From Ligustrum vulgare (lineage: Eukaryota > Streptophyta > Magnoliopsida > Lamiales > Oleaceae), in NCBI GenBank assembly GCA_963555705.1, contig OY743184.1, positions 32,808,614 to 32,872,613 of the forward strand: a stretch of 64,000 nt of DNA, in the 5' to 3' direction. The notes below the pieces were generated by a model that saw only the letters and a program-made list of their open reading frames with translations, did not search any database and was not told where the DNA came from. The translations under genes were made by a program, and so were the position numbers. How positions within the stretch are numbered: the first letter of the stretch is position 1; each line of letters begins with the position of its first letter. This document shows, one piece after another, positions 1,134 through 45,080 of this stretch.

Positions 1134-1303
1134 TGTTGTAAATATTATTTTGTATTAGTGAATGACAATTGTACCCCTGTAACCCTATAATTACTTTGTA
1201 TATCCTTTTTTTCCTATATATATATGAGGCTCTGATTCATAATAAAATACACACGTTTATTGGTGTTTATACTTTGCTCTTTTTTTCTCTCTAGTTTATA
1301 ACA
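1134..1303 (+). repeat. C1 5' LTR (170 bp)
   Basis: Starts TG, ends CA. A TATA-like tract (CCTATATATATATGAG) lies near 1214-1229 and a CT-rich segment near the end. The phrase CAATTGTACCCCTGTAACCCT recurs in the 3' copy near 17420. Its structural resemblance to the C2 LTR (GTGAATGA...CCCCTGTAA) suggests the two belong to one superfamily. Confidence 0.85.
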
Positions 1304-1305
1304 CT

Positions 1306-1317
1306 TTATCAGCACGA
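1306..1317 (+). promoter_or_regulatory. C1 primer-binding-like site
   Basis: TTATCAGCACGA lies two bases after the 5' LTR. The same 12-mer follows the C2 LTR at 39201-39212. It shares the TATCAG core of the usual plant copia site TGGTATCAGAGC, which pairs with initiator tRNA-Met. The exact tRNA is not established here. Confidence 0.65.
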
Positions 1318-1599: not shown

Positions 1600-2720
1600 T
1601 CTATAATTTTAATATTCTTGAAGAATCCATATATATTTCAACATAATTTAAAATATATTCCAGAAGAATATTTTATCATCACTCGTGTAAAGCACAAATA
1701 TTGTTAGTTCGAAAGGTATAATGAATCATTAATATCAATATTCCAGAAGAATATTGACTTATTATTCTTGAAGAATCGCAATTATAGAATTATAATTATT
1801 CCAGAAGAATAATTTATTTATTTTTTATGCTCCTAACTGGCACAATATATATTAATTATTGTTATAATTGAATTAGATTCGAATCAATATTCCGAAGAAT
1901 ATTGAGTTATTGCTACATTTCAATATTCTAGAAGAATATTATTTTATTGCTCATGTGATAAATATTGCATTTTTTCTCAAAGAAATTCGAATTTATTAAT
2001 ACTCCGGAAGATAATTATGATGTAGAATAAGATATTGTTGTGATGATTCCTGAAGAATCATAATTTTATCTCATATAAAATATAATAATGGAATATAATT
2101 TGCTCCCGAAGAGCCCAATATTATGAGATATGTTATTAATTTGATATTATGGGACAATATTTTGTTGTTACTCCTGAAGAATAACAACTTTATTTTATGG
2201 TAAATATTCAATTTATTATGTTACTTGTTCACGAATAACATAGTTTCTTTTTTCTGCTCAAAGTAAATGTTAGTATTCTATTAACTTTGAATTTCCATAG
2301 AAAGTGGTATAGGTATTCGATCTTATCATATCGTTTTGATTATACCAACTTACAATAAACATTTGTTTGAATATATGATTTACATTCAATAATATAGTAC
2401 AATATTTCAGAAGAATATTGTATCACTATTCTAGAAAAAAAAATCTAAATCAATGTTCTAGAAGAATATTGATCTAAATCGATATTCCAGCAGAATATTA
2501 CACATTAGAAATATCTCATTTGAATTATCTAATAAAATATTCTAGAAGAATATTTCGTTTTTGCTCTGAAGAAGCAAAATCTCATTTCAAATTGAATAAG
2601 TTTAATATGTTTAATATGTTGTTGCTCCCGAAAAAGCATAACAATTATAAAATAATATTATCTGCTTTTAAAGAGTATGATATTGCAATATTCCAAAAGA
2701 ATATTGACATATTGATTTTG
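1600..2720 (+). repeat. Array of covarying short hairpins with common pentaloop (C1 body)
   Basis: About fifteen to twenty short inverted repeats lie 40-80 bp apart. The core C-[CAGAA/CTGAA/TAGAA/TTGAA/CCGAA]-G is nearly constant, while the arms differ yet stay complementary. Examples: 1735-1757 (arms TCAATATTC/GAATATTGA), 1794-1814 (AATTATTC/GAATAATT), 2043-2061 (ATGATTC/GAATCAT) and 2535-2555 (AAATATTC/GAATATTT). More follow near 2570 (TTTTGCT/AGCAAAA) and at 2895-2913 (ATTGAAC/GTTCAAT). The stretch has no long ORF. Arms that change in both halves point to conserved RNA or DNA structure rather than conserved sequence. The function is unknown. Confidence 0.8.
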
Positions 2721-4492
2721 AATAGCAATAAAAATATGCTTTTGAAGTAGCACATGTTTCGGAGATTATATTATTTTGAGTTCATGTTTATCCTTGAAGG
2801 AAAATATATAACTAATTTCATAAGGATATTGAATAGTTTGACTACTTAAATAATATATGATTATATAATGTTTAATCATTGAATTATATCTTATATTGAA
2901 CCAGAAGTTCAATTTGATTTTATTATTTGGCATGACCAGTTGGACCATCACTGGATCAATAATGATGCGAAATTAAAATGGATACTCAATGAAGAACCAG
3001 AAAATTCTTCAATTCAAATATATAATGTTTGTTCTCTTTCATGAAATTTTTTGACTGTCGCTAGCTAAATTAGGGATTAAATCCCCCATATTTATGAAAA
3101 TAATTAAGGGGATAAATGGGCCCCATCATCCTCCACGTTGATCATCTAAATATTATTTGTATCTAATAGATTTGATACATATACTAGATGATTGCATGGT
3201 GTTCGCAGCTGAAGTTTGCAAAATTATTGCTCAAATTTTAAATTATGAGCATAATCTTCAGATTATATAATCAAGAATGTGTCTCGATAATGCTAGTGGA
3301 CATGAATCTCAACATTTTAATAAGTGTTAGTTGGGATGTCGATAAATGGTTTGACATTTTTGCTTGTTAAACGCCTCCAATTAATTGAGAACAAAATACT
3401 TCCCTTTTTTTGTTTAAAGAATTCTATTACGCATCATGCCAACATCATAGTTCTCCCTGTTATAATTGGCTTATGGTTAGAGCCCAACTTCTCCATCTAA
3501 TTTTTTATAGTGCAATTGATCCACCACAATGCACTAAAATGGAAAATAAAGAATGTTGAGAAAAATGCGTTGTTTAAACATATATCCCAAATGGGTGATA
3601 TTTTACAACATCGAAAAAATGATTGTCAATTTAATTGGATAATTTTCTCAACATTAGGGGAGATATTAGTAGCTAAAAATTATACAAATGCATCGTACTA
3701 TGTTATCTATATCCTCGTGATTGATAATACGAACCAGAAGTTTGATTAAAAATACGAACTAAAAGTTCAAAGATAATATAATTACAAGATGCAATATCTA
3801 TAAGAGATTAATAAAATCTCATTTACTAGCTACAGATACTCTATCTTGTATTGATGTATAGCACGTGTGAAGTATAGCGATATCTGATTCGAATAAAGAT
3901 CCCCAAATAAATAAAAATAGAGCAAATGATTATGATGGTCCTATTGAGGAGGCATATACTCGTGAGAAAGTATTTATTGACATAATTAATTGTAAATCTC
4001 CAGAAGAGGTTCAAGTACTTGAAATATAGAAAATTGATATCACTATAATTATGTCTTGTGGGGAAAAGATCGAATTGAGATAATAATTGTGTCGACACAC
4101 TTTATAAAGTACTTATGCAAAAGTAAATTGCGAAGCTAGCCGCATCATAAGATTAATGATAGCGATGATAATAAAAGAAAATGTTTCGAAGAAAATCGAC
4201 TTAAAACTAGTTGGCAAAAGTATACATTGAGGCTAAATTAAACTTACTACAAAACCTGAAGTTTTGGGACTTGAAGTCCAAACACTTAAAAGTGTAAAGC
4301 TAGTAAAATACCTATAAGTATAGTCGTAATACACGACTTGATGCGCAACAAATGTTTCAAAGATCTGGCACAGATACAATATTTTATTTGCCTTACAAAT
4401 GCATAATAAGTGCCGATAAATATATGATTATTAGAAATATATGTATATATATATAATGAAAGATAATCGACTCTAATTACTAGCTTGCACTC
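2721..4492 (+). other. C1 body, left part, non-coding
   Basis: AT-rich DNA without a recognisable protein. Sparser hairpins of the same family continue: 2895-2913, near 3730, 4251-4265 (AAAAC/GTTTT, loop CTGAA), 4263-4282 (loop TTGAA) and 4282-4295 (ACACTT/AAGTGT). The ORFs of 79 and 85 codons near 3510 and 3841 look like nothing I know and I do not call them. The segment stops at the G1 insertion. Confidence 0.55.
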
Positions 4493-17388: not shown

Positions 17389-17525
17389 TGTTGTAAATAT
17401 TATCTTATATTAGTGAATGACAATTGTACCCCTGTAACCCTAGTTATAATTACTTTGTATATCCCTTTCTTTCCCTATATATATGGGGTTCTAGTTCATA
17501 ATAAAATACACAAGTTTATTGGTGT
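17389..17525 (+). repeat. C1 3' LTR, left piece (broken by G2)
   Basis: Repeats the C1 5' LTR from TGTTGTAAATAT up to TTTATTGGTGT. The last five bases, GGTGT, are the G2 target duplication. The LTR continues at 29670-29706. Confidence 0.9.
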
Positions 17526-18208
17526 TGTTGACCACAAAATTCAGCTGGACCTTGGACCAACACGTCTCAGCTCCTCCCTCTTGAACACGTGGATCTTCTG
17601 CGCACTGTGACAAACAATCAGTTTGCAAAGGGGGCCAAGGTCGCTCCCGTTTGCACTCCGATGCCAAAGTCAGTGCCCATGTTAAGAAAATATAATTTGA
17701 GTGCAGGAGATATAAGTGTGTAAAAGAGAGAAAAGGGAGTGAGAGTAAAATATTTAGTTAAGAGAGTAAAATGCTAACCCCTTACATGGCGGGAGGAGGC
17801 TTCTATTTATATAAGGATTCGTTGTTTTGGATTGTGACACATGGCGGACTTTACACGTGTATTCACCCTAGCTCTTGGAGGGGACAACCTTGCTTTTTGA
17901 CCGTAATCATTGCTACATTTCATAGGAGATGGGCGCCTGTCACATCTTGGTAAAGGCGGTGTCACTTCTCTGACTTCATCCCTTGTCTCATCTGTACATC
18001 CGAGGCGCCACCGTAAGCACCTCGGCTAAGCGTAAAGCGCGTCTGCTAGACACAAATCAGTTCGGCCAGAGGAGTTCGTGTGCTTTTCCACCTCTGCCAT
18101 TGGCCCATGGCGATATCTTAAACTTTAATCATGGGCTAAAGTCCATTGGGCCCTCATTGGGCCTTCACTGGTGGCCCAATGTGCCACATTTTGGGTACGA
18201 TCTCAACA
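17526..18208 (-). repeat. G2 LTR (3' LTR in element orientation, 683 bp)
   Basis: Starts TG, ends CA on the plus strand. Read on the minus strand it has a TATA box (TATATAAATAG, plus coordinates 17803-17813). Just inside the element, 18209-18231 reads on the minus strand as GGATTTGAGGGACTAG, the probable polypurine tract. Confidence 0.9.
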
Positions 18209-19109
18209 CTAGTCCCTCAAATCCGATGTGGTCATTTATGGGTAGGTAGGATTTGTTGTATGTTCGAGGCACTGACTTTGTTTTGATGGCCTTTTGTAAT
18301 CGTGTAGCTACTGGGTTACGATCTGGATCAAACTTTGTTATCTGTTACATCCAATATATATATATTTATATTTTATTATTCTACCCTCTTTCGGCTGGGA
18401 ATTATCGTATGGTGCTGCAAGCTTGAAGCTCGGAGCGACATTCCTTAGCGAGAGCTCGGATTGAAAGTAAAGTCGACCTTCTATTCCCGTTCCACTTTTC
18501 AAGTGAAAATTGGAGTTATACCTACAGGTCTTTCAGGCGGCGCATTTAACATAAAGGGGGGCCTACTAATATCGGTTTCCAAGGAGTAGGAAAGGAATGA
18601 TAGGTGACATCTCTCCGCGCGTGGCTCCCACTATGGTAACTAAACGGTTTTCTCCCTTCGTTTGACAGTTGGTGCCTTGATTAATCCATCCCCAAGGGAT
18701 GTTGGTTACCTGTGTTAATTATGTGGCTCGCAAACCAAGGGTTTTGGTTTATTGAGTTCCCTATAAAGCCTTCCTCTCCTCGTTGTTTCTCCTTTACCAT
18801 ATCCTCAAAAATTTTCTGCAGTAGTATCTCCGCAAGAAGTTGCAGCGTCTCTCACGTTACAGCAATTCTTTCAATATCTCTTCAAGGGCTTTCCACATAG
18901 GAATTCATCCCTGTCGCTATACACTCTTCATTGGCGCATTCTTCGTCCCGAGTATACAATCTTGGACTTCCATTTCCGAAGGTAAATTTCTTTTCCTTTG
19001 TAAGTGTAAAGAAACCTCTTTATTTCTAGTCTTCAAGAGTGGGTTTGAAAATTTTGTTTTGCCCTTTGTTTTTTATTTCGGTGAGTCTGGCTCTTTTTTT
19101 TAAGAATAA
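18209..19109 (+). other. G2 spacer upstream of antisense ORF
   Basis: About 900 bp of probable promoter and leader for the plus-strand antisense gene. It has an AT tract near 18352-18380 and CT-rich stretches (18770-18960). Short ORFs near 18712 and 18840 show no known domain. No repeat is evident. Confidence 0.4.
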
Positions 19110-21878
19110 ATGGAAAGAGTTGGGGGAACGGGTTCACAGGAAATGTTAGCAATGGCGATTCCGGTCAGAGCTTTTTGCCCCATATCTTTGTCGGTTTTTA
19201 GTTCCTGCTTCTTTAGGGAGCAGATTAAGAGGAGGAATAGGAAAATCAGTGGTATAATTTATTTGAGTGATTCTGACAGCGAAGAAGAAAAAGACCAGAA
19301 CTACATGGCTCATCTATCATCCGAGGAGGAGGCATCTTTGAGAGACCTTCGAAGCAAGCGGGACAGGGATTTGGGAAGAGAAGAGGCAGTAGGCTCTTCT
19401 TCCGGTCACCAGGACCTCGGTTTAATTGTTAGGGCCCCATTTAGGGCACATAGGGAAGAGTTGGGGCTTTCGGAGGAGGAGATAACCCAAGTTGAAGGTT
19501 GGGTAGACCTGGTAAATAAAGTGTCTGGGTATCATGTTGACCCTGATCCAAACCCAGAATCGTGGGAGAGCAGTGAGATTGCCAATGAAATTCGAGGGGT
19601 TGATTTGGCTGGAGCCTCGGAAAAATTCAGGATGCCAGAAGAGGTTCGATTAGTGCACCCTACACCTTCTTGCCGACCCTGCAGCCCTCCCCCAGGTCAA
19701 GTGGCCATATGTTATGATGCTCTATCCTACGGGATGAGGCTACCCCTGCACCCCTTCTTCAGGGCACTGCTCAAGAGCTACAACATATGCCCCTACCAGC
19801 TGGCTCCCAACTTCTGGACGCAGGCCGTGGGTACTTGGCTAGTGTGGTAAGAGGTCAATCCTGACTATCCCATCTCACTGCACATCATTCATACCCTGTA
19901 TACTTTGAAGAAATCAGTTAGAAGGGAAAAAGACGTGAGGTCGAACGTCAAATATTGGTATTACTTGTCTCCCAGGGGCTCATATCCTCCTGTTATTACC
20001 GGTCATCCAACTTCGATAAAGAACTGGAGGAACCAATGGTTCTGGGTCGCTGGGGAGTGGCAGAGCTCTCCTGTGGACCCTAGTCCAGAAATTACAGTTC
20101 CCCGAACTCTTTTCCTACCTAGTGAGTCTTGTACTTGCTTTAGTGTCTTTAAGTGTCATGTGTCATTTGCTTTTTAATTTCTGTTCACTTTTCTTGACTG
20201 GTTCCTAACATGTTATTGGTTTATGGCAGAGGACACTTTTGCTTGCCTCCTCCCTGATGCAGACTTAGCAGCAATAAGGCGCTTGTTTGATTACAAGGGC
20301 ACTTATCAGGGGGTCATTCAACAAAATAAGTTATTTGTTAAGCACGACCTTATGCGAGCCATGAGTAAGTTTGTTTCCTTATTGCCTTCATAACTTATGC
20401 CTCTTCTGTTCATAACCCTATTTTCCTTCTTTTCTTGCTAGGTTCCAAGGACTTTCCGAATATTTCTTTGAAGGGTCTCATGGCTAAAAAGATCCCTCCT
20501 GCCCTTCGCCACGGCAGTGAAATTGAAAAGAGGCAGAAAGCAGTACTTGCTAACCTGCAAGTTGGGGTGACAAAGGAGGTGTCTGAGGCATCCACATCCC
20601 AACTTCAGGGTCCTCTTCCCGTCCTACTGCCACCACCCAATCTGCTGCCAGTGGGTCCCCAATAGCCCAGCATAGAAAAGGAGGCTGATCCTAAAAGAGT
20701 TATCGCAAAGGGGAAAGGGAAAAAGTTAGACAAGGGTGGCTCTAAGAGGGAAAGGGAGGCTAAGGATGTCTCTGCACCATCCTCATTCTCCGAGGATATT
20801 TTTGAGCGCGTATCCGAGGAGAACCCCGCTCCCTTGAAGAGGCTCAGAAGGGGCAAGGACAAGGAATCCACCTCCGCACCTCTGCCACCAGAGATTCAGG
20901 ACTTGGAGGACGAGCCATTTGTGTCTATCCCAGATTTGGCTTACAAAGTGACACCTGAGGGGGCAGAAGAGCTCGAGCGCATTAAAACCAGTGTTCTCCC
21001 CAAAGATGTTACCTTCAGTCCTTCCCTATTCGACTTCCCCAGCTCTCCTCCCGCCAGGGCCGCATTAATTACTGAACAATTTTGGACGGAGGGCTAGTCT
21101 GCCTTTTCTTCCAGTGTCAGTCCGTCTCGGAAGTTGCTCGCTGTTAAGGCCATGAACGCCAGGGCGTTGGCCCTTATTGACGAGGTGGAATCTTCCGTGG
21201 AGGAGGCGTAGCGGGACAAGAAAGATGCTGAGACTGCTCTCCGCCATGCAGACAACATGCTAAAGGACATTAATGACCTCAAAACTCAGCTGTCCATAGC
21301 CCGTAAATCTTCCTCCGAGGAGAGGGCTAATGCTAAGCGCCTCCAGGAAGATAATGATAAATTGAAAGACCTCCAGGCCTCTGAGTCAAACGTGGCGGCT
21401 CTGTGCAAGAAACTAGATGACTCCAACCGTTCTGACCGCCGCTAACGCAACCAAATCTAAGCTGGAGGCTGAGGTGGCAGTAGCCAACAAAAAATTGGGG
21501 AGGGAGATGGAGGCTAAGGAAAAAGCAAAGGAGGACCTTGCCTCTTTAGAACGGCACATGCAAACTAGGATCACAGAGGTTCTGGAGCAAACTGTCATGA
21601 CACGGGTGGAGAATGCTCTAAGTGCCAAAGTGTCTGAGGCTATCCAGAATTTTAAAGATACTTTTGAAGAGACCCCAGAATACGAGGTCATGCAGAGGGT
21701 CTTTGGGAACATAGGGGCCAGGATGGCTTTGGGGGACGTGAAGGAAGCTTTCCCAACCCTGGACCTATCCTCCATTGAAGCCCTATACCTCGAACCTCAA
21801 GATGATTCTCCTAACGACCCTGCAGATCTTTTGGGTGCACCTGGAAAGGGTTCTTCAGAGGATGTCCCTTCACAATGA
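19110..21878 (+). pseudogene. G2 antisense ORF (putative gypsy-type transposon domain), three exons, broken
   Basis: Exon 1 starts at 19110 (an alternative ATG lies at 19143). It is acidic near the start (SDSDSEEEKD) and contains the family domain, with MRLPLHPFFRALLKSYNICP followed by QLAPNFW. A TAA lies at 19848-19850, and the same frame continues to a GT donor at 20122. Introns at 20122-20229 (108 bp) and 20365-20441 (77 bp) keep the frame when removed. Exon 3 encodes a Lys-rich linker (KGKGKKLDKGGSKRERE), then a long coiled coil ending at 21878. Further breaks: stops near 20662, 21095 and 21209, and a frameshift near 21420. It matches the layout of the G1 minus-strand gene. Function unknown. 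Confidence 0.82.
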
Positions 21879-22573
21879 TCATCTTTTGTGTTTGTTGTTG
21901 TTGTTTTTTCTTTTTTTTGTAAGTGCAATGGCGCTTTATACTGTAAATGTAACAACATTCAAATTGTAAATACTTTGATTTTATGAATGCAATGATTTGT
22001 TTATATTTAGCTTAATGTCTTAGTTTGTACGACCTTATCTGTTTAAGCGTGAACGCTTCCAGACATAAAACGCGTTGTAAACGCCTTGTAAACGCATCAA
22101 ATGCCTTGTAAACGCATCGTATGAAGATAAGACACAAACGCGTTGTAAACGCGTTGTAAATGCATCAAACGCCTTGTAAACGCATCGTATGAAGATATGT
22201 GTATTAGTCCCTCAGATCTAAGTAGCTCAAGGCATTCATGTTTGCTGGTTAGATCTGATTTTGACCAATTTTTGAACATTTCTATTTTATGCTCTGTAAC
22301 ACCTATGTTTATAAATTTGTATGAACCCCTATTGATGGTGTTAATACTTTCAACCCATACGTAGTGGTCGCAGTGTATGCTTAAAAGAGTCCCTTGTTTT
22401 TAACAAATTTCATGCATGGCGTAGACGTATGGTCTTATAACCAAAATAATCTAGGAATTTGTGTTTATCCATTATGTTTGTCTAATCAGTACTTGGTATA
22501 ATCCTCAACGTAACTCACTTAGGATTTTATAAGATTATATGGCAATGCTGTAAACCCTGGAGAAGATTTTGAT
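21879..22573. other. G2 convergent spacer with 68-bp duplication
   Basis: Lies between the ends of the antisense ORF (plus) and pol (minus). Two 68-bp copies (CGCGTTGTAA starts at 22071 and 22139) each contain smaller copies of TTGTAAACGCATC. The rest is AT-rich without coding sequence. Confidence 0.8.
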
Positions 22574-25500
22574 TTATTGAAAATAACGACGAAGGTGATC
22601 CGTGTTCCAAGGATTACATAAAGGTACCCCAGATAAGTCCTCGATCATGTACGTTCCGGGTACCACCTCGGCAGAGACTTTGTAAGGGCGTTCCCAGTTA
22701 GGACCTAGAGTCCCTACTCCTGGTTCTTGAGTTGAGGGAAGAATCTTTTTGAGGACTAAGTCCCCAATATTAAAGTGTCGACTCTTAACACTTTTGTTGT
22801 AATAGCGGGCCATTTTCTCGTGGTACCTGGTCATTACTACTTGAGAATCATTCCATTTTTCTAGGAGGAAATCCAAATTAGCCCTTTGTGTTTCTTCGTT
22901 TCCCATCTCGTCATAATGGATTTGACGAAGAGAAGGGACCCCAATTTCAACTGGACATACCGCCTCGGATCCATATGCCAAGGAGAAAGGCGTTTCACTA
23001 GTGGCAGTGTGCAAGGTGGTTCGAAGTGCCCATAACACTTGTGGGAGTTCATCTACCCATGTGCCCTTTTTGGACTCCAGCTTCCTTTTCAGGGTATTCT
23101 TTATGGTTTTGTTCACAGCTTCAACCTGTCCGTTAGCTTGTGGGTGATGCAGAGATGAAAATAATTTCTTAATTCCCAAATCGTCGCGCAATTCATCTAT
23201 ACTTCTGTTTTTTAACTGTTTTGCATTATCACTAACCAGCGAGTGCGGTATTCCGAATCGACATATGACATTCTTCCAGATGAACTTTGTGGTGTTGGCC
23301 TCGGTAATCCTCATCAGAGGTTCCGTCTCGACAGACTTGGTGAAGTAGTCAATTGCCACTATTGCAAAGCAATTATTACCAACACCATTTGGCATAGGAC
23401 CAATAATATCAACCCCCCACTTCGCAAAAGGCCAAGGGCTAGTTACTATAGTCAGCTTGTGATGCGGCTAATGTGGTATGGTTGCATGCCTTTGGCATTT
23501 ATCGCACTTGCGTACGAAGTCATGAGAATCCTTCCGCATAGTCGGCCAAAAATATCCCTGTTTAAGAGCTTTCCGAGCCAATGATAATGCCCCGGCGTGG
23601 TTGCCACATATGCCCTCATGGATTTTTTTCATCACATAACGTCCTTCCTCCGGCCCGACACATCTCAGCAAAGGAGAGGAGTAACTCCGTTTATAAAGCA
23701 GGTCATCAAAGAGTACAAAATTTGCGGCATATCTTTGCAATTTTTGAGTTGTTTCAGGCTCGTCTGGCACTGTCTGATGCTTCAAGTATGCTAGTATAGG
23801 ATTCATCCAGGATCCTTCTTCTTCTATTGCCAAAATCTCCGTCCCTGGCTCAATAGAAGAGGTCAACAAGTGCTCAATTGGGATCGGATTACGGAGCTCT
23901 GAATCATTGCTACTTGCTAGTTTGGATAAAGGGTCGGCGTTGGAATTCTCAGTTCTGGGAATGTGCCGTAACTCCATTTTTCCAAAGCGCATAGCCAAAT
24001 CTATTACTTTTTTCAAGTAAGTGACCATAGCTGGTTCTTTGGCAGAAAATTGCCCATTATACTGACTCACAACGAGCTGTAAATCACTATTCACCACTAT
24101 GGACTTAATCTTCAAAGCTTTCGCAAGTCTCAGCCCAGCTAATAGCGCCTCGTATTCAGCGACATTGTTTGAGGCTTTAAATTCAAAGCAGATTGCACTG
24201 TGCATTTTGAATCCTTCTGGGCTTATTAGCAATATTCCCGCACCGGATCGTCCCTCAGCCGAGGACCCATCAACGAACAATTTCCACTCTCGGCTGTCAT
24301 CCGTGTTATCAACCATCTCAACCTCCGGCGGATGTGTGAACTCAACTATGAAATCCGCTAATGCTTGACCCTTTACAGCGGTCCGAGGCTCATAATGTAG
24401 GTCGAACTGGCTAATTTCAATCGCCCACTTCATTAACCTTCCAGATACATCTGGTTTTTGCAACACCTGTCTCATGGGAAAGTTGGTGAGCACGTGTATG
24501 GAGTGTGCCTGAAAGTAGGGATGGAGCTTGCGAGATGCTGTGATCAACGAGAAAGCAAGTTTTTCCATATATGGGTAACGTGTTTCAGCATCCAGCATGG
24601 CTTTGCTTACATAATACACCGGGAACTGATTCCCGTCCTCCTCTCTGACCAACACTGAGCTAATAGCCTCTTTTGATACGGCTATAAACAAGTAGAGAAG
24701 TTCGCCAGCTTTTGGTTTCGATAGTAATGGGGCATGTCCCAAGAATGCTTTCAGGTCGGCAAAAGCCTGCTCGCATTCCGGCGTCCATTGAAATCGCTTT
24801 CCTCCCTTCAAGACCTTAAAGAATGGTAAGCATTTGTCAGTGGATTTGGAAATGAATCGATTTAAGTCCGCAATTCTCCCCGTCAAGCTTTGCACTTCTT
24901 TTGAATTCTGAGGTGATCGCATGCTTAACAAAGCATTGATTTTATCGGGATTGGCTTCGATCCCCCTCTTATTCACCATGAATCCAAGAAATTTTCCAGA
25001 CGCTACCCCAAAAGCGCACTTCGCTGGGTTGAGCTTCATTTGATATTTCCTCAAAACATCGAAGGCCTCTGACAAATGACGGGTATGCTCTGTGGCGACC
25101 ATACTTTTGACCAGCATGTCATCAACATATACCTCCATGGTGTTTCCTAATTGTTCTGAAAACATGGGATTTACCAACCTTTGATAGGTAGCTCCAGCAT
25201 TTTTTAAGCCAAATGACATAACTTTGTAACAATAGAGTCCCCTATCTGTAATAAACGAAGTATGCTCCTCATCTGATTCATACATGGGGATTTGATTGTA
25301 CCCGGAGTATGCATCCATAAAACTCAGCATCTCATGTCCCGCTGTGGAGTCCACTAACTGATCAATCCGAGGCAGTGGAAAACTGTCTTTGGGACATGCC
25401 TGGTTCAAATTTGAAAAATCAATACATACTCTCAGCTTCCCATTATGTTTTGGTACCAAAACAGGGTTTGATACCCACTTTGGATACCGGGATTCTCTGA

Positions 25501-26642
25501 TAAAGTCATTTCAACAGCTTCGTAACCTCTTCTTTCAAGGCCTCATACTTATCAGAACTCATAGGTCTTCTCTTTTGCCTGTGCCCAGGGCTTCTGGGAT
25601 CAAGCTGGAGTTTGTGACAGGCCACTTTAGGATCGATCCCAACCATGTCATCATGTTTCCATGCGAATACATCGAGGTTTTCAAGTAAGAAGCTTTTCAG
25701 CTGACCTTTGTATTCAACCGGTGAATCCAATCCAATTTGCATTTCTTTGATTGGGTCAAGTGGATCTACACTGAAGCATTCCAACCTTTCAGCTGGGATA
25801 GAGCAATTTCCTCCTGCCATTCTTGGGTCCAGATCTGCCAGATCTTCTTGCAACGTCATTGTAACATCCTCAATTCCTGAGGGTCCTCCACCCAGTTTTT
25901 CAGGGTCTGGAACAGCCTCGGCCATTGTTACATCGCTAATCATGTTAAAGCTCCGGTCTTGAAATTTCCGAATTGCGTTTGTGTAACAGGCCCGCAATTC
26001 AGTTTGGATCCCCTTTACAGTTGCAATACCATGCTCCGTGGGGAATTTCATGCAAATGTATTTTGTATGAATGGCAGCTCCCAAGTCAATGAGGCCTGGC
26101 CTCCCAATTGAGCCATGATAGGAGGAGATTTTGTCCACAACCAAGAACTCCATGGGGATTCTGGAAAGAGTTGGCGCTTGCCCTACTTCAGTCATAAGGG
26201 TAATGGATCATCTGGGAGTTATGCTGTCCCCAGTGAATCCATATATTGGATTCGGAACTGGAATGAGTGGAGTGATGATCCTCATCTTATCAAAAGTTAC
26301 CCCGTAAATCACATTTACCGAGGCACCATCATCCACCATCATTCGTGACAACCCATTCCGAGCCACTACTACCCTGATAACCAATGCATCATTGTGTGGA
26401 AAGTGTACTCCAATAGCATTGTCTTGGGTAAAAGTGATAGATTCTGTCAGAGGCATCCCAACAGGATGTGAATGGATATGGTAATTCATGTTGGCAGGCT
26501 GCTTGACTTCTCTGATATATCTCTTTTGGGAGTTGTTTGTGCTCCCACTTGGGTGGGGACCTCCCAATATTGTATCGATTTCACGAATAGGAGGGTCGGC
26601 CACAGGCGTAGGTAGTTCTCTTGTATCTTTAGCATGTGCCAA
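22574..26642 (-). pseudogene. G2 pol: protease, RT, dual RNase H, integrase; broken
   Basis: Minus-strand domains. Protease: MMVDDGASVNVIYGVTFDKM, about 26340-26281. Reverse transcriptase: LVPKHNGKLRVCIDFSNLNQ; YVDDMLVKS near 25120. RNase H: LTGRIADLNRF onward to KPDVSGRLMKWAIE near 24430. Archaeal-type RNase H: FVDGSSAEGRSGAG; SNNVAEYEALLAGL. Integrase: CDKCQRHA near 23490; VAIDYFTKSVETE; VSDNAKQL; ANGQVEAVNK. Breaks are few: TGA at 26208, a frameshift near 25500 at the start of RT, and TAG at 23468. Otherwise the reading is continuous to 22574. Note VSDNAKQL, where most relatives have DNG: Asn-Ala replaces Asn-Gly beside the second catalytic Asp. Confidence 0.9.
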
Positions 26643-28548
26643 GGAGGTATCCTAGCCCTTGTTCCTGTCTATTTGAGGATTGTCAATCCTCTCTTTGGTC
26701 GAGTTCTTCCATGGAGCTCTCCTGTCAGCTCGGTTGAACTTCTGGCCCCCTGATTTTTGAGTTCTCCCCTTGTCAGGGGAGAAATCATTTCCCCTTCTTC
26801 CATGCTCCTTTTGGTCCGCTAACATGTGAATTTCCCTGCAATCTTCTATTGCGTGACAATAATACCTGTAGTAGGCGCAGTAAGCCCCAATCATGGGCTG
26901 TTTTCCACCTCGGCTACTTTTCATTCTTCCTTGAGCCATGAGAGGATTCTTAGAAGGAGCGTTGGAGTGCAAGTTGGGGATAGCTTCCGTGATCACTGCT
27001 GCATAGCTGGACCCTGTCCCCGGAAATGGACGCGGAGCTCCACCTCGGTTACTGCCGAACCTATCCTTGTTACCTCCTTTCTTGAGGTTTGCTTCATTAG
27101 AATACCCAAGATTGTATCTCTCTTGAAGGTGGTTATCTCTGGCCCTAACCATTTATTCTGATACGATCTCCTCCTTCATCAGGTCTACTAGGGCGTTGTA
27201 ATCCGTTAGTTTCCTGCTTCGGACATCCCTCCAAAACATGCTCGTCATATCTAGCCCTCCTTTCAAAGCGGAAAACATCTCCGCCTCGGTGATGTTTTCA
27301 CAAATGTGCATATCTTCAGTAAACCGAGCTAGGTAACTTTTCAGAGATTCATCCCTTCCTTGCCTTAGATCCTGAAGGCGTTGGAGTGAGAGCTGGCCAG
27401 GCCTGGAGGAAACAAAACCATTTTTAAAAGCTGTTTTCAGATCTCTCCAACTGTGGATGCTACCCGGAGGGAGCTTTTTGTACCATCGTATCGCGCTTCC
27501 CTCCAGGGTCAAAGAAAAAGCCTTGCACTTCAGTGCCGGAGTGGCTCCGGCTATTTCCATGCTAGCGCGGTAGTTTAGCAGGTGATCGTCACGGTCACCT
27601 CGGCCAGAATACTTTGTTATTTCTAGCATTTCGAAGTCATGAGGCACTGGGTACCTACGGATGCCCTCCATGAAGGGACTTATTTCCTCGTCCTTATCCA
27701 GCTCGTATGAGGGTAGTTCACTGTTCTCGTCATGACCGGAATACATTGGGTCATGGTATTGGTCGTAGGGCGGTGGAGCGTACTCCTGCCTTTGTGGTGT
27801 CAAAACTCGGCCGTAGTTTGGCCTTTCATGGGTCGGTAAATCATTACTAGATTTGGTCCGAGCTGCTTCGGCTCTCCTTTCCTGCCTATTCCTAGGCTCA
27901 TGAGTGGGGGCTAATTTTTCCACCCCTATGCCATGCCGGTCTCTATGCATTTCGCTTCGCGACAGGGCTTCTTCAGTGCGTCGCTCCCGCCTATTTCTAG
28001 GCTCAGTTGCATGGTGTTGACCTTGGCCAGTCCGGCCCCCTCTTTTGCTTCTGAATAACCCTCCTATTCGGCTGAAGACACTTCCAGATTTTGAGAGAGA
28101 AGCCTCCTTGTGTCTATCTGGGGGTTGGTTTTGTTCTTCAGGTGTTTCATGCTCCGGGCCTTCTTCGTAGAGAGGCACGGATTCCACCTCGGCATATGCC
28201 TGCGGATCTTGATAATAATAGGAGGCAGTAGCCAGTAGCCGCATCAGATGGAGAGTAATGTGGCTGTGAATATTGCGAGGGCATCACGGGCTCGTTCATA
28301 ACATACCCTCTAGCCATGTACGCATTCATCGCAGCAGTTTGTTCTATCTGCTATTTCTGCATTTCCAGCATTTGGGCTGCCATGCGAGTCATGTCTCGCA
28401 GCATGCGACGATTTCGGTGCCGGTGCGGAGGGTTAGGTTGGGCCACCCCCTCGTTTGTGTTCTCACGAGGCCTCTGAGGAGTCTCCTCCTCGCTGAGCTG
28501 GTCATTTCTACTCCTACGAGGGTTAATATCTTCATCACTTTCATTCAT
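26643..28548 (-). pseudogene. G2 gag, broken
   Basis: The ATG at 28548 begins MNESDEDINPRRSRNDQ. There is a stop at 28351, a frameshift near 28240, then open reading from 28244 with in-frame TAA at 27153 and TAG at 26652. The capsid domain is clear (FSLTLEGSAIRWYKKLPPGS; LKSYLARFTEDMHICENITE). The zinc-knuckle region reads YCAYYRYYCHAIEDC, in which an expected His appears as Tyr. Gag and pol are in one frame from 28244 to about 25500 apart from nonsense codons, so the original was a single polyprotein. Confidence 0.87.
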
Positions 28549-28599
28549 GTTCAGAGCAATTTTTTGGTTTTATCTTCTCTTTCAAAGATTGGTGAACTT

Positions 28600-28862
28600 T
28601 TATCTTAAAGCTCTAAGCCTTTTTCAAGGTTATTAAACTTGTATTTCAAAGTTTCATGCCTTTTTCAAGGTTAATAAACTTATATTTCAAAGTTTCACAC
28701 CTTTTTCAAGGGTAATAAACTTATGTTTCAAAGTTTCACGCCTTTTTCAAGGGTAATAAACTTATGTTTCAAAGTTTCACGCCTTTTTCAAGGGTAATAA
28801 ACTTATATTTCAAAATTTCACGCCTTTTTCAAGGGTAATAAACTTATATTTCAAAGTTCTTG
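28600..28862 (-). repeat. 41-bp tandem array in G2 leader, about 6.5 copies
   Basis: The unit reads TTTCAAAGTTTCACGCCTTT + TTCAAGGGTAATAAACTTAT on the plus strand. Copies nearest gag are more diverged and the middle copies are nearly identical. It lies between the primer site and the gag ATG, so it is transcribed as 5' leader. Confidence 0.93.
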
Positions 28863-28961
28863 CAGTTCTTCGCTCTTTTGCAAGAGGTTACTCGTCCTTT
28901 TTCAAAACTTCCTTTTTATGTGTGGCTTTTCATTATGCATTTTCGTGGTTAGAAGTATGGT

Positions 28962-28979
28962 TTCCCACAGACGGCGCCA
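28962..28979 (-). promoter_or_regulatory. G2 primer-binding site
   Basis: On the minus strand, four bases after the LTR end CAACA, the sequence is TGGCGCCGTCTGTGGGAA. TGGCGCCGT is complementary to the 3' end of plant tRNA-Asp; the match then fades. This fixes element orientation. Confidence 0.8.
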
Positions 28980-28982
28980 AAA

Positions 28983-29664
28983 TGTTGACCACAAAATCCT
29001 GCTGGACCTTGGACCAACACGTCTCAGCTCCTCCTTCTTGAACACGTGGATCTCCTGCGCACTGTAACAAACAATCAGTTTGCAAGGGGGCCGAGGTGGC
29101 TCCCGTTTGCACTTCGATGCCAAAATTAGTGCCCATGTTAAGCAAATATAATTTGAGTGCAGGAGATATAAGTGTGTAAAAGAGAGAAAAGGGAGTGAGA
29201 GTAAAATATTCAGCTAAGAGAGTAAAATGCTAACCCCTTACAAGGAGAGAGGAGGCTTCTATTTATATAAGGATTCGTTGTTTTGGATTGTGACACATGG
29301 CGGACTTTACACGTGCATTCACCCTAGTTCTTGGAGGGGACAACCTTGCTTTTTTACCGTAATCATTGCTACATTTCGTAGGGGATGGGCGCCTGTCACA
29401 TCTTGGTAAAGGCGGTGTCACATCTCTGACTTCATCCCTTGTCTCATCTGTACATCCGAGGCACCACCGTAAGCACCTCGGCTAAGCATAAAGCGCGTCT
29501 GCTAGACACAAATCAGTTCGGCCAGAGGAGCTCGTGTGCTTTTCCACCTCGGCCATTGGCCCAGGGCGATATCCTAAACTTTAATCATGGGCTAAAGTCT
29601 ATTGGGCACTCATTGGGCCTTCACTGGTGGCCCAATGTGCCACATTTTGGATACGATCTCAACA
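28983..29664 (-). repeat. G2 LTR (5' LTR in element orientation, 682 bp)
   Basis: Pairs with 17526-18208. On the minus strand it carries the transcribing TATA box (plus coordinates 29259-29269). Confidence 0.9.
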
Positions 29665-29711
29665 GGTGTCTCTACTTTTCTCTATTTTTCTCTCTAGTTT
29701 ATAACATTTAT
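29665..29711 (+). repeat. C1 3' LTR, right piece, and C1 target duplication
   Basis: GGTGT (G2 duplication) is followed by the last 37 bp of the C1 LTR, ending GTTTATAACA at 29706. TTTAT at 29707-29711 then matches 1129-1133. This closes the outer nest. Confidence 0.9.
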
Positions 29712-38968: not shown

Positions 38969-39198
38969 TGTTATAAATATATATAATTTAGGTATAGTTA
39001 GGTATAAGTTGGAAAAAATCGGTGAATGAAAATTACTCTTATGCCCCTGTAAAATTTATATATTACGATTATGTCATTGTCCAATATTACGATTATGCCA
39101 TTGTCCCCTCCTATAAATAGGGGCCTATATTCATTATGAAATAAGAAGAATAAGAAATTCTCTCTGATTCTCTCTATATTCTCTATAGTTTTACAACA
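38969..39198 (+). repeat. C2 5' LTR (230 bp)
   Basis: TG...CA ends. A TATA box (CCTATAAATAGGGG) lies at about 39110-39122. Two near copies of ATATTACGATTATG(T/C)CATT occur at about 39058-39102. Confidence 0.9.
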
Positions 39199-40754
39199 CG
39201 TTATCAGCACGAGTCTCTAGCCAATTGAGTAATAACGGGAGTATGCTCTACAGTTGCATCTAAATGATGAACCTCTGTATCAGAAACATGATTATTACAA
39301 ATCAATGTTTTCCTTCAAAACTTTCAAAGCTGATCTATGCAAAACCGTATATCCAATTGACGATCGGAGACCGGATCTGGAATCACGGCGGCAAGACGAA
39401 TCTCCAGAACCGACGCGTGTCACCGGCGGCGACAGACGGGGGCGGCGCGTGAGGCGCGTGGGCCCACGCGCAGACGTCAATCTGGCGTGTGCGAGCGCGT
39501 GGAGTTGTTTCCGGCGATGGTGTCAACAGGAAGTTTGTTCATATCGACGTTCTTGATTTTTCTATGGTCTTACTTTTCTGTTTGGTGCAGTTTTGGATAT
39601 TTTCCGGCGGTCGAACGTGGCGGCGTCGTAAAAACTATTTTTAAAGCAATTCCGGCGAGATTTTGAACTTCAGACCAAAAGTAAGTTTGTTCTAAATTAA
39701 ATTTCAAACCTATTGACGGTATCGATTTATCCATATGATCAATATATTAAAATATGGACGATTTTGTCCTTAATGATACGATAAAATATATTAATCGTGA
39801 TTTAACGAAATTGATTAATCATTATTAATGATATGATGATAAGTGTTAATAAAATATATATTCTAAATTATTTAACACTACTATGTAATCAATACGATAA
39901 ATTAAAAGATTTAAAAGTAACATAATAGTTGCCATACCGTGATGGATTGAGTTTTATGGACTGGATTTATACCTTAACTGGAAATGACTCATTATCGTAA
40001 CGGATTGGACTATTATGAATACCTTGACTGGATTTGAAGATTCGACTCGCTCACTCATGAAAGGTAATTATTTCATTATGTTGTTGCCACCTACATGGTT
40101 GGTTCTACCACCTACATGGTTGGCTTTATCAGTTTAATTATTTCATTATGTCGATTCCGCCTATATGGCCGGTTTAGCAATTGAATATATAAAATACTTT
40201 ACATATATTCATATTTTATATTATTTCAGAAACACCTCAATTGTTGGTTAATTCTAACATATTAGAGGATGTTTAACATATATACGTGGTGATATTATTA
40301 TTGTTTAACCTATATACATGGTGATATTATTGTTATTTGATACTTCATCAAATGATACCAGAAGTTATCATTACCAAAAAGTTAGTAAATGTTGATAAAA
40401 ATATTTCATCCAATGGTACCAGAAGTTACCAATATCTGAATTTGAAGGGTGGATGAAAATTATTCAACAAGAGAATGTTGATGTATGATAAGATAATATC
40501 ACATGATAGCTCGGATATGGCTAATGTGAAAATAATCTCTTCAGTATTATGAGATGAATATTAGATGATAAATGTCTGGAAATGTTCTTGCACGAGCACT
40601 TATGTATTCCAGAAGAAGTGTATATTTACTCCAAAAGAAGTAAAAATTATCATCTAAACATACTGAAATGATATTATTATTGCTCCTGAAGAAGCATAAA
40701 CGAGACATACATGCAAAATGCAAAAGGGGAAAACATTTATGATCCTCAAAATGA
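39199..40754 (+). other. C2 leader and left body, non-coding
   Basis: The GC-rich patch at 39360-39560 is unlike the rest of the element and resembles a structured leader. A 100-codon ORF there has no known domain. CACCTACATGGTTGG repeats at about 40089 and 40110. Pentaloop hairpins include 40351-40372 (AATGATAC/GTTATCATT, loop CAGAA) and one near 40411-40431 (ATGGTAC/GTTACCAAT). Confidence 0.6.
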
Positions 40755-40960
40755 GAGATGTGTTTCGGGAGTAGCCGTATCCTACCACCTCTGACCTTTT
40801 GAGGAAATAAAGAAAAAGGTGTGTTTCAAGAGTAAGAAATACTCCATACTCTACCACCTTAAATCTTTGAGGTACACAAGATTAAACATAAACAAAATCG
40901 TAGAAATTCATGGTGTGTCTCAAGAGTGAGAATACTCCGTACTCTACCACCACCTATTCT
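40755..40960 (+). repeat. Imperfect tandem repeat beside the LOG stop codon
   Basis: Three copies of GTGTnTCnnGAGTnnnAnTACTCC...CTACCACC start near 40758, 40820 and 40913. GAGTA-AGAAA-TACTC within the middle copy is a perfect 5-bp stem. The last copy ends a few bases from the LOG stop (40966), so on the minus strand this is the LOG 3' flank. Confidence 0.7.
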
Positions 40961-40965
40961 AGGGT

Positions 40966-41619
40966 TCACAAAGATAAATTTACATTAATCGGACTCCATT
41001 TTCGCTTGATTCTCCTTCCTTGCGACCAATCTATCTTTACTCCTGCTGGATCTTGTATTGGAATATATGATTGCAACTTATCCAACAGTTCCTCGATAGT
41101 AGGAGCAGAAATAAGGATTCTCCTAGAAAATGGAGAGATGAATCCCTGTTCCACAGCATAATCAAGAAATGTTAGCAAACCATCAAAGAAATTGTTTACA
41201 TTTAAAAGCCCAATAGGCTTAGTATTGAGATCTAGTTGAGCCCATGAGGTAATATTAAAGATTTCTTCTAAAGTACCAAAACCTCCAGGCAGAGCTATGA
41301 AGGCATCAGAACCATATAGCATGCAAGTTATGCGTTCATGGATAGATAAGGTTTGTACTTCATGCCCTTGTGTTTTACCTGTGATATCAGCTAAAGGAGT
41401 AGGTATAACACCTATCACTCTTACTTTCTCTGCTAGAGCGGATTGTGAAACACAACCCATTAATCCACTGCTACCTCCTCCATACACGAGAGTGATACCT
41501 TTCTCTCCCAATTTCTTTCCAAGATCCACTGCTGCTTCTAGATACCCAAAACCTTTCCCTACTTTTGATCCACAAAATACACAGATAGTTTTGATCTGTC
41601 GAAGTTTTGGTCCTTCCAT
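40966..41619 (-). CDS. LOG-family cytokinin riboside 5'-monophosphate phosphoribohydrolase, intronless
   Basis: 217 residues, uninterrupted, ATG at 41619. The Rossmann-type LOG/'lysine decarboxylase-like' fold is shown by CVFCGS (13-18), VYGGGSSGLMG (45-55) and the family motif PGGFGTLEE (111-119) with its Glu; the Arg before it (R96 in HERITCM) is kept. LOG enzymes release active cytokinin bases from nucleotide precursors. The Lys usually following that Arg is Ile here, and the protein looks more diverged than ordinary plant LOG paralogues, which carry several introns. It is antisense to C2 and follows the zinc-finger ORF by 259 bp. Length is normal for LOG. Activity is not certain because of the Ile. 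Retrogene or virus-derived copy are both possible. Confidence 0.9.
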   Translation of the reverse strand: MEGPKLRQIKTICVFCGSKVGKGFGYLEAAVDLGKKLGEKGITLVYGGGSSGLMGCVSQSALAEKVRVIGVIPTPLADITGKTQGHEVQTLSIHERITCMLYGSDAFIALPGGFGTLEEIFNITSWAQLDLNTKPIGLLNVNNFFDGLLTFLDYAVEQGFISPFSRRILISAPTIEELLDKLQSYIPIQDPAGVKIDWSQGRRIKRKWSPINVNLSL

Positions 41620-41878
41620 CTTTGAAAGAATAAGGAAGGAAAAACTTACAAGAAAATGTTATTTTGGATGCATAAACTGTGAAAATCATTGGCTTTTAAA
41701 CTCGAAAAACTTCACTATTTACTACTCGTATTTCGAAAAAGTAAAGATTTACTTTTGACAAAATCACCCGACTCACCTTTCGGTGATTTAATATATTTAA
41801 CCAGCCTTTATCAAAACTCGTGAAAGAAAATAGAAAAATATTTTATATGTGCATATATATCAAATGATTTACCTTGTA
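41620..41878 (-). other. Spacer between the two cassette ORFs, with alternative hairpins
   Basis: AT-rich spacer of 259 bp. At 41761-41789 AAATCACC pairs with GGTGATTT, while an inner competing stem TCACC-TTT-CGGTGA lies at 41773-41786, so two mutually exclusive folds are possible. No splice signal is needed to join the ORFs. Confidence 0.55.
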
Positions 41879-42424
41879 TTAATGCTGTATAGACAAAACA
41901 TCATTGTTTATAACAGCCTGGCAAACAAGATCTTTTGCTATTATATTCTTGAGACTATAACGCTCTTTATCGCTGATAAATTTAGCCCATAAAGATAGTA
42001 GCTCACGCTGCACATACCCACTAGGGTGCGTCTCAAGAGTCAATAGGATATCATCCAATGACTCCTTACTCAGCCCACCCTTAATGAAGTCTATCTTATC
42101 ATCTCGATTTATAGATGAATACCCTATTGACTTACAACGGGTATCACATGTCCATCGAGCACATTTGTAGCAACTATTTAATCTTTTTGCTCTTCGCTTC
42201 TTTGCAAAAGTACTCTTACCTAAGCCAGGTTTGTGCTTAGAAAATGAATCTGGTAATTCACCAGCTAATCGAACTTTCGCTTCGATCAACCAGCGAACAT
42301 CTTCTGGGATGCCATGATCCATCAGCAACCTCAATCTTTCGAGCCTAATTCGATAAATTTTTCTCAAATCATTTACTGGAAGATTGGAATAATATTTGCG
42401 AATATTTGAAAGTATGATATCCAT
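41879..42424 (-). CDS. Flexivirus-like cysteine-rich nucleic-acid-binding protein (predicted)
   Basis: 181 residues from the ATG at 42424; an upstream in-frame TTG would add nine. A helical N-terminal half is followed by a basic patch (KSTFAKKRRAKRLN, 70-83) and a zinc-finger-like cluster CYKCARWTCDTRC (C85, C88, C93, C97), then IGYSSINRDDKIDFIKGG. Basic patch, C-x2-C-x4-C-x3-C and the following aromatic/FIxxG stretch resemble the small cysteine-rich RNA-binding protein encoded near the 3' end of carlaviruses and related Betaflexiviridae, where it acts in silencing suppression or gene regulation. The C-terminal 60 residues have no counterpart I recognise. Intact, same strand as LOG. The assignment rests on motif similarity only. 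Confidence 0.55.
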   Translation of the reverse strand: MDIILSNIRKYYSNLPVNDLRKIYRIRLERLRLLMDHGIPEDVRWLIEAKVRLAGELPDSFSKHKPGLGKSTFAKKRRAKRLNSCYKCARWTCDTRCKSIGYSSINRDDKIDFIKGGLSKESLDDILLTLETHPSGYVQRELLSLWAKFISDKERYSLKNIIAKDLVCQAVINNDVLSIQH

Positions 42425-44389
42425 TTTTGATGCATCTAGCCTTCTTCCCAAATCATCTATTTAAATGCATTATTCAACGCGTGAAAGAGCGATAGCTCCG
42501 CGTGTCAGTGATATCGATTCCATTAAGAGATAATGGAATAAATTATTGAAAAGGTGAGAACAATGAGATAATGCGATATAAGGGAAGATTTGGCGACAAG
42601 ATTGAGATATTTTCCTTGGATATTGTACCTGATTTTTCCGGTATAAAAGTAATAAAGGTATGCTGATTTGAACTGTACAGAAATACGTACTGATGAAATG
42701 AATACTGTATTGAACCAGAAGTTCATACATATGTACAAGTGAAATATCTTGTTGAACCAGAAGTTCTATAATGATTGGTTAGATTCCAATTCAATAATGA
42801 TATTTATTGAGAATGAATAATGGCATTCATTAAAGAACCAGAAGATTGTTATCATTGCTGCTTGTTCTCAAAAGCAAATTAATTATCTCACTAAATGAAT
42901 GACTGATTTTTTGCTCAAGTAATGATATTACGAGCAAAGTGATAAATGCTAGCATGAATATATTTTAAAGTCATTAATGATTTTACGAATTAGTTGAGAT
43001 AATAGAATAATATATTGCTAATGGTTTAGCAGATTAAAAGCCTCAAGTTATTTTCTATGAGAACAATTTGATTATGCAGCAATATTCTACATATAAACAT
43101 GTCAATACGATGAAATAATGATTTGCTTGTGAAACTTTATGACTTTTTAAGAAGTGCGATATCTATATACACTCCAACAATACGCACTTGATTTATGATT
43201 GTATGACATGTGTTGCGGCATTTTAGCCGATTGATATAATATAAGATTTGTGAATATTATAGGGAAAACATGCTTAAAGCGTAATTATGCCTGAAGCATA
43301 ATGAGAATCGATTCCAAAAATAAATATCTCTTGAATGATTGAGATGATCCCTTTGAGGCTGAATACTCATAGTGAGTATAAGGGACATAGTTAAAAGAGA
43401 TTCAGGTACCTGATGATAGAACATATACAGAGATCTCTCTATATTGAGTTGAAGTGGAATCGATGAATAAGTCGACTACATACAACCCTCTTATGAAAAT
43501 GAGGTTGACGAAATTATAATACTTTGGCCAAGTATATAACCCCAATGTAGGGATTATTATTCAAGGACCAGAAGTCCAAATGCTTAAATTTAAAGCCAGT
43601 AATTATATGTATAAATGAAAAATATTTCATAGTCGTAGATGACTACTCGTTGCACGCAAGATTTTTCATTGAACTGGCATGACATATGGTGGATGTGACT
43701 ATAATCTAAATCACTAGCTTGAGCTCTTTGATATACCAATGAGTGAGATCAAAAAGTGTGATTTTCATCTCGGTATTTTGAGGGTATTCTTTGATGTACC
43801 AGTTGATCGCAGTACGTTGGGATTTCAAGTAAAATGATTGTAGATTATATGTCAAAATTGATATCTATTTCAATGATTGATTATGATCCTGCAAATTAGA
43901 AATTGCAGTTTATAAAGTGCAAGAACATACATGTATAAATCATTGAAAGATTCAATATGCCCAGATTAGTATCACTATAGAATGATACAAATGACCCCAT
44001 AATATAATATGTTGAAATTGAAATTGGAGTGTACTATTATTATATTTGAATATTCGGGCATGCAATTGATTTTCAATATGCAAAATTATATTATCCACCG
44101 GAAATTGATTATTCACCAGAAGTGAATATGAAAATGAATATTTAATTATTCATCAAATGTGAATTCTAGATTTTGATAGAAGTGAATCAATTCTAGATTT
44201 GAGTAATGCAATCAGTCAACTAAATAAACATTGCTTGGTATAGCATGTTCAGTACATCATAAATAAACTATGACATCATAAATGAGCTATGAATGATTTA
44301 TATAAAGCTCATCATGAATGATATGTTTTGATGAAAATATATGAGATTGCATCAACATACTTGTGATATTCCATGAAAAGGAATAAATA
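42425..44389 (+). repeat. C2 right body: pentaloop hairpins, non-coding
   Basis: Hairpins of the C1 type. Examples: near 42713 and 42758 (GAAC-CAGAA-GTTC), 42910-42938 (TTTGCTC/GAGCAAA with inner GTAAT/ATTAC), 43284-43302 (ATTATGC/GCATAAT, loop CTGAA), about 43563-43575 (GGAC/GTCC, loop CAGAA) and 44111-44127 (ATTCAC/GTGAAT, loop CAGAA). Sequence from 43726 parallels C1 from 15985. An 86-codon ORF (42470-42730, minus) has no known domain. Confidence 0.72.
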
Positions 44390-45060: not shown

Positions 45061-45080
45061 ATATTTCATTCAAGGGGGAG

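Follow-up and report, generated by a model that had tools for sequence, protein, structure and literature searches.

A Recurrent C[YNGAA]G Hairpin in Copia-Type LTR Retrotransposons of Ligustrum vulgare as a Candidate Counterpart of Viral Dispersed Packaging Signals

Dispersed packaging signals are already known in viruses, including hepatitis B virus, where the available portions of the published accounts describe a common loop motif that recurs on varying stems in both coding and non-coding sequence (PMC6281560, PMC7612645, PMC4789732), and in RNA viruses many stem-loops of one common motif cooperate in assembly (PMC6281560). Retroviral packaging hairpins, as presented in the accessible sections of PMC7599994, are few and lie in the leader, and exposed guanosines are the targets of the zinc knuckles of HIV-1, MoMuLV and RSV; for HIV-1 and RSV, these guanosines are located in hairpin loops. 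Among plant elements, the Sireviruses are a copia genus with conserved motifs outside their coding sequence (PMC2829016, in part), and the Ty1/copia lineage Bianca is described as having a half-tRNA-Ile primer-binding site (PBS), where editing turns the first base of the anticodon into inosine (Neumann et al. 2019, PMC6317226, in part). The accessible text of a review from 2025 on the LTR retrotransposon life cycle in plants (PMC12786077) contains neither "hairpin" nor "stem-loop", and our search of the literature, in which subscription journals were thinly covered, found no description of a dispersed packaging-signal system in LTR retrotransposons.

Here, we describe a family of hairpins with the strict form stem-C[YNGAA]G-stem, which we propose as a candidate retrotransposon counterpart of the viral signals. 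As in dispersed packaging signals, many stem-loops with a common loop motif are found along the genomic RNA; in contrast to the viral systems, their carrier is an LTR retrotransposon, whose non-autonomous copies hold them in dense non-coding arrays, and binding by a coat or Gag protein is a candidate function. The loop guanosine that we propose for a zinc knuckle recalls the SL2/SL3 packaging hairpins of HIV-1, whereas the many copies of a single loop, found also in pol, are unlike the retroviral arrangement. The conserved motifs outside coding sequence are a likeness to the Sireviruses, and the PBS, presumably of the half-tRNA-Ile type, would be a likeness to Bianca; the hairpin array, in turn, is a feature of the elements studied here, and the available part of the Bianca account (PMC6317226) makes no mention of one.

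The window, which is a stretch of 64,000 nucleotides, contains a non-autonomous LTR element, A (1134-29706, + strand), with the 5-base duplication TTTAT on each side, and a further element, B. Element A is split by two nested gypsy elements, and the region 1600-2913 is its leader. The PBS of both A and B presumably fits half-tRNA-Ile. Comparing the internal parts of A and B with the window's own copia and gypsy proteins gave nothing below E 0.4. The layout is as follows:

1134..1303, + strand: 5' LTR of A; target duplication TTTAT at 1129-1133 and 29707-29711
1304..1317, + strand: PBS of A, CTTTATCAGCACGA, read from the sequence; presumably of the half-tRNA-Ile type described in the available part of PMC6317226
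4609..15985 (ends approximate), + strand: gypsy-type element inside A; LTR match 4609-5323 / 15309-15985
17389..29706, + strand: 3' LTR of A, broken by the second nested gypsy-type element (17526-29664, duplication GGTGT)
38969..45300, + strand: element B; PBS type as in A; target duplication ATTTC
39199-39213, + strand: PBS of B, CGTTATCAGCACGAG, of the same kind as that of A

Two open frames lie antisense within B. The frame at 40966-41658 (- strand) is intronless and LOG-like (PF03641, 116.6 bits), and is possibly a captured copy of a host gene, and that at 41879-42460 (- strand), with matches to Viral_NABP (PF05515) and Carla_C4 (PF01623), is predicted from these matches to be an endogenous carlavirus-like nucleic-acid-binding protein.

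The hairpins of A and B are listed below, with loops in square brackets and bulged bases in parentheses; L numbers denote sampled loci, which are introduced further on:

1655..1671, + strand: ATATTC[CAGAA]GAATAT hairpin
1735..1757, + strand: TCAATATTC[CAGAA]GAATATTGA hairpin
1794..1814, + strand: AATTATTC[CAGAA]GAATAATT hairpin
1884..1905, + strand: decayed hairpin, loop short by one base (CCGAAG)
1922..1940, + strand: AATATTC[TAGAA]GAATATT hairpin
2043..2061, + strand: ATGATTC[CTGAA]GAATCAT hairpin
2102..2114, + strand: GCTC[CCGAA]GAGC hairpin
2164..2188, + strand: GTTGTTACTC[CTGAA]GAATAACAAC hairpin, one mismatch
2449..2473, + strand: hairpin, loop TAGAA, one G·U pair
2482..2498, + strand: hairpin, decayed loop CAGCA (CCAGCAG)
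2535..2555, + strand: AAATATTC[TAGAA]GAATATTT hairpin
about 2559..2579, + strand: TTTTGCT/AGCAAAA hairpin, loop one base shorter than in its L016 relative
2686..2706, + strand: hairpin, decayed loop CAAAA (CCAAAAG)
2895..2913, + strand: ATTGAAC[CAGAA]GTTCAAT, counterpart of the pol hairpin at L025 5539
2987..3010, + strand: decayed hairpin (CCAGAAA), in the stretch corresponding to L025 5653
3730..3744, + strand: CGAAC[CAGAA]GTTTG hairpin, one G·U
3995..4011, + strand: AATCTC[CAGAA]GAGGTT hairpin, one G·U
4250..4266, + strand: CAAAAC[CTGAA]GTTTTG hairpin
4267..4279, + strand: GGAC[TTGAA]GTCC hairpin
40352..40371, + strand: in B, ATGATAC[CAGAA]G(T)TATCAT, with a single base bulging on the 3' side of the closing G
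40414..40431, + strand: in B, TGGTAC[CAGAA]G(T)TACCA, one bulged base
43284..43302, + strand: in B, ATTATGC[CTGAA]GCATAAT hairpin
44110..44128, + strand: in B, TATTCAC[CAGAA]GTGAATA hairpin

Exact CYNGAAG 7-mers occur 14 times on the + strand of 1600-2913 and not once on the - strand. Taking the slightly longer interval 1320-2913, the 14 sites compare with a mean of 0.21 (maximum 2) in 300 dinucleotide shuffles; at least four Watson-Crick pairs, including the C-G pair, form at 10 of the 14 sites (shuffle mean 0.01, maximum 1), and at least six pairs at seven of them (mean 0.00, maximum 0). When sites were taken without preselection for pairing, the first five outer pairs formed at 11 of the 21 sites of element A and at 5 of the 11 of element B; four other stretches of the window, taken on both strands, gave 1 of 63 (G·U allowed, zero or one base bulged 3' of the G, duplicates removed). 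Thermodynamic folding of pieces of A gave a closing-pair probability above 0.7 at only six of the 14 sites, and of at most 0.03 at five. No Rfam family matched in the window at the gathering score.

These data bear on a first-pass annotation that had described about twenty hairpins with a fixed 7-mer at 1600-2913. Its coordinates 1735-1757, 1794-1814, 2043-2061 and 2895-2913 are exact, and the dinucleotide-shuffle check that it proposed came out as it had anticipated; twenty hairpins are reached, however, only when decayed variants (CCAGCAG, CCAAAAG, CCGAAG) are counted along with the 14 exact copies. The arms TTTTGCT/AGCAAAA, placed near 2568, do form a hairpin, but one that lacks the standard loop, its L016 relative having C[TTGAA]G with a one-base bulge after it. 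The motif also extends beyond the leader array, to which it had been confined, being found at 3730-4279, in element B and in coding regions of relatives. Tandem duplication had been dismissed as the source, and the argument that one loop sits on many stems stands, but part of the leader array is plain duplication, as many stems share AATATTC/GAATATT, and 1562-1975 and 2362-2776 are 63% alike. A genome scan for one pair of arms returned 8865 occurrences of AATATTC-N5-GAATATT in the 1.385-Gb genome, compared to 12 for the reversed control, and our literature search, with its thin coverage of subscription journals, found no description of this hairpin family. The hairpin feature is real, and no mere tandem-repeat artefact.

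Across the genome, ATTCCAGAAGAAT has 2929 copies on one strand and 2925 on the other (reversed control 7 and 14). The 30 places on contig C1 listed for this sequence formed our locus sample, which is therefore selected for one hairpin, and all element copies come from one genome. In the first 20 loci, with the orientation of each defined by its hairpin majority, 227 hairpins of at least six pairs lie in the majority orientation and none in the opposite one. A gag match was found in only eight of the 30 loci, which we call autonomous, and which comprise family I (L025, L027, L031 and L036) and family II (L030, L033, L034 and L037), 82-85% identical to each other across gag-pol. The first five outer pairs form at 21 of 77 unique sites in the eight autonomous loci (other strand 0 of 10), and at 74 of 209 in 18 non-autonomous loci (other strand 0 of 31). 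The 18 gag-less loci hold between 1 and 21 hairpins of at least six pairs (median 11.5), compared to five in L025 and two in L027; L012, L014 and L019 have pol matches at only 27-32% identity, yet carry 12, 14 and 21 such hairpins, respectively. LTR pieces are 89.5-92.5% alike in L009, L011, L012 and L016, and 96.4-100% alike in L010, L013, L015 and L019, which suggests that the latter four moved recently and hence, we infer, in trans. The family II leader has a single CYNGAAG site in 955 bases, and thus the leader array is not general.

In addition to the strict form, a common variant carries a single unpaired base immediately 3' of the closing G, as in the two B hairpins at 40352-40371 and 40414-40431, at 4518 in L025 gag, at 5653, 7898 and 7925 in L025 pol, and in leader units with the pattern TGCTC[CTGAA]G(T)AGCA. 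Bulged sites with at least four outer pairs number three in L025 pol, compared to 0.21 expected, a count reached in 0 of 500 shuffles. Among 72 unique pentaloop hairpins closed by C-G with six further Watson-Crick pairs (duplicates removed), the loop is YNGAA in 39, and where a single position departs, it is most often the loop G that is lost (14 of 72), which would fit decay of methylated cytosine in a CAG/CTG context after insertion.

The autonomous relatives encode recognizable copia proteins. The matches of L025 to the copia protein of the window cover 472-734 and then 849-1353, in the same order; in that protein, Pfam locates rve at 529-628 and RVT_2 at 876-1119, such that integrase precedes reverse transcriptase in pol, which is the copia-type layout. 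The Gag protein P0001 has an arginine-glycine stretch followed by C-x2-C-x4-H-x4-C, read from the sequence spacing; the zf-CCHC profile matches its relative P0002 and stays below passing on P0001 itself, and Retrotran_gag_2 scores 25.2 bits in P0001 (cut-off 27) and 30.1 in P0002. Searching with gag gave 2152 relatives at E 0.001 or better (7976 scored); among those with a name, the highest scores belong to Primulina, Orobanche, Henckelia and Salvia, which would point to a host in or near the Lamiales. The viral contigs searched with gag contained no relative, and of the viral-contig stretches with the hairpin pattern (37) or the PBS pattern (one), none has a gag or pol match. In L025, 188 bases (4941-5128, oriented) separate the gag and pol frames, with TTCAG directly before the start of pol, and this spacer is perhaps an intron.

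Coding sequence was compared with 1000 shuffles that held both the protein and the codon usage fixed, counting hairpins with at least four outer pairs and a bulge of up to two bases 3' or one base 5'. The pol of L025 (family I) contains 11 CYNGAAG sites compared to 4.25 expected, and nine paired hairpins compared to 0.94; the corresponding values for L037 (family II) are 12 compared to 3.06, and seven compared to 0.90. In neither case did any of the 1000 shuffles reach the observed number of hairpins, and the - strand of pol has one such hairpin in each of L025 and L037. We note that the two families do not constitute independent tests, because of their shared ancestry. In gag, the result for family I is not significant (one of two sites paired, 215 of 1000 shuffles), and both of the two sites are paired in family II (5 of 1000 shuffles). 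Three control coding stretches from other elements in the window gave no hairpins. When all 64 triplets were tried in turn as the final bases of the C-G-closed loop, GAA stood out most strongly in each family (10 compared to 1.35 in family I and 9 compared to 1.10 in family II, 0 of 300 shuffles each); the ending TTC in family II (2 compared to 0.16) was likewise reached in 0 of 300. In an unrelated control copia element, GAA is not the strongest outlier (1 compared to 0.35).

Several homologous stems differ on both sides, although these cases are few and were picked by eye. Compared to L025 5539 (ACGAAC/GTTCGT), the hairpin of A at 2895-2913, which lies in a pol relic, reads TTGAAC/GTTCAA, with both partners altered in two neighbouring pairs; non-autonomous copies have G-C for one A-T pair of L025 5653, and retain the bulged A. 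The gag hairpin of family I has ACCATTGC/GCAAATGGT, compared to AGCATTGC/GCAAATGCT in L077, L079 and L081, a C-G pair in place of G-C; this pair is lost in L078, and L080 has the loop without a stem. At alignment columns 1134, 1165 and 5117, L018 has A-T/G-C or T-A/C-G pairs exchanged relative to the other non-autonomous copies. Across 201 stem positions, from hairpin columns with the 7-mer in at least 3 of 12 rows, a near-standard loop and at least four mean pairs, 98% of cells are paired, compared to 33-53% with slid partners. The automatic count of double changes gave four consistent and two inconsistent, which does not beat the slid controls (0 to 4 and 0 to 5); two of the four consistent changes lie at one pair, in column 1707, and column 574 probably holds misaligned paralogues. 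Strand counts of G·U and A·C are 14 and 9, or 5 and 4 in the unique hairpin set. Many pol sites are absent from the relics, which suggests that sites come and go, and the alignment is loose away from its two anchors. The pairing is thus clear, and strict covariation is suggestive only: the earlier claim that both arms change together holds at these stems by eye, but not in the automatic count.

The hairpins exceed chance, face one way, are in synonymous-level excess in the pol of two related families and persist without gag. Taken together, the pol excess, the GAA outlier and the often greater hairpin content of gag-less copies support the view that the hairpin is under selection, with the RNA of the element as the simplest level. 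The proposal in the first-pass annotation of a recognized stem-loop under selection is therefore supported, considering that the pol excess was reached in 0 of 1000 shuffles twice, that GAA is the strongest of 64 endings, that flanks are complementary at 74 of 209 sites compared to 0 of 31, and that both arms have changed at some homologous stems. We consider it very probable that the hairpin is under selection as RNA, a degree of confidence that we have lowered slightly because the automatic covariation count fails to beat its control.

The hairpins would then be dispersed cis-acting sites of a Bianca-type Ty1/copia lineage, each comprising a short stem of free sequence, a C-G end pair and a YNGAA pentaloop, often with one base bulged 3' of the G, and acting in the + strand genomic RNA. 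Free stems, a single direction, occurrence in coding and non-coding sequence, turnover in place and retention in carried copies are what is expected of repeated + strand RNA sites for a protein supplied in trans. As YNGAA retains one loop guanosine, and knuckles bind exposed guanosines, the Gag knuckle is a plausible reader: Gag, with its arginine/glycine-rich stretch and CCHC knuckle, would bind the loop, and many copies together would direct the RNA to the particle and serve to nucleate assembly. Non-autonomous elements like A, mobilized in trans, may have multiplied the sites into arrays that compete for Gag. We give Gag as the reader, with packaging as the purpose, an even chance, and hold slightly more tentatively the full model of a distributed RNA code, in which dozens of interchangeable C[YNGAA]G hairpins in leader, gag and pol would be read by Gag for genomic RNA selection and assembly, with non-autonomous parasites winning by dense arrays. 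Against a packaging role stand the gag of family I, which alone gives 215 of 1000, the stemless loop of L080, and the family II leader, which is nearly without sites.

All of the evidence for selection at the RNA level would fit equally well if a host RNA-binding protein read the hairpins, or if they served RNA stability, localization or translation instead of packaging. We consider this rather unlikely, as packaging is the simplest account of gag-less, trans-carried copies that are often richer in sites; our literature search, which was aimed at other topics, gave no host reader preferring YNGAA. A role of the sites at the level of double-stranded DNA, such as that of heat-shock elements (TTCnnGAA) or of some other array bound by a factor, is highly improbable: TTC-YN-GAA is present at 9 of the 14 sites between 1600 and 2913 in A and at 16 of 38 in L019, but at only 1 of 13 coding sites in L025, 2 of 14 in L037 and 1 of 11 sites in B, and such sites would have no need of long complementary arms. 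Heat-shock elements in particular are disfavoured, since TTCnnGAA is not found at each site.

Tandem duplication combined with template switching, during reverse transcription or replication, could make or repair palindromes with no selection at all, and would account for the AATATTC/GAATATT arms and for the duplicated parts of the leader. This origin leaves unexplained both the single loop on many different stems and the excess of GAA over the 64 endings in pol at fixed protein, on which grounds template-switch palindromes are disfavoured and the absence of selection appears very unlikely. An effect of conserved peptides encoded by the 7-mer, with incidental stems, is scarcely probable at all; the gag loop does lie within a conserved LPEAN peptide, and L080 retains the loop without the stem, but the excess remains in shuffles that preserve the protein, which disfavours this constraint, and hairpins are also found in non-coding leaders and pol relics.

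Recognition of the hairpins in element RNA, with Gag as the candidate reader, bears on the means by which plant LTR retrotransposons select their RNA, and by which non-autonomous copies are mobilized in trans. Both questions become directly testable with a defined loop motif that occurs in natural arrays as well as in coding sequence, and it may be possible to pair non-autonomous families with their helpers by sequence. If true, the model would carry the concept of dispersed packaging signals over from viruses to cellular retroelements.

Two further repeats were observed in these elements. In the family II leader (L037 3052-3329, oriented), the unit CCACCTACATGGTTGG is repeated in eight exact copies, with two in B (window 40087-40123); by eye, it could fold as CC[TACAT]GG with a bulged T and ACCA/TGGT arms, and this leader may use a different hairpin array. 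Tandem units of ~66 bases (TGTACTCTTTTTCCTT ... AACGAGGCA) lie by the 3' LTR at window positions 16746-17358 and 44369-45046, and at ~8650-8815 (oriented) in L025; they are common to A, B and autonomous copies, and look foldable.
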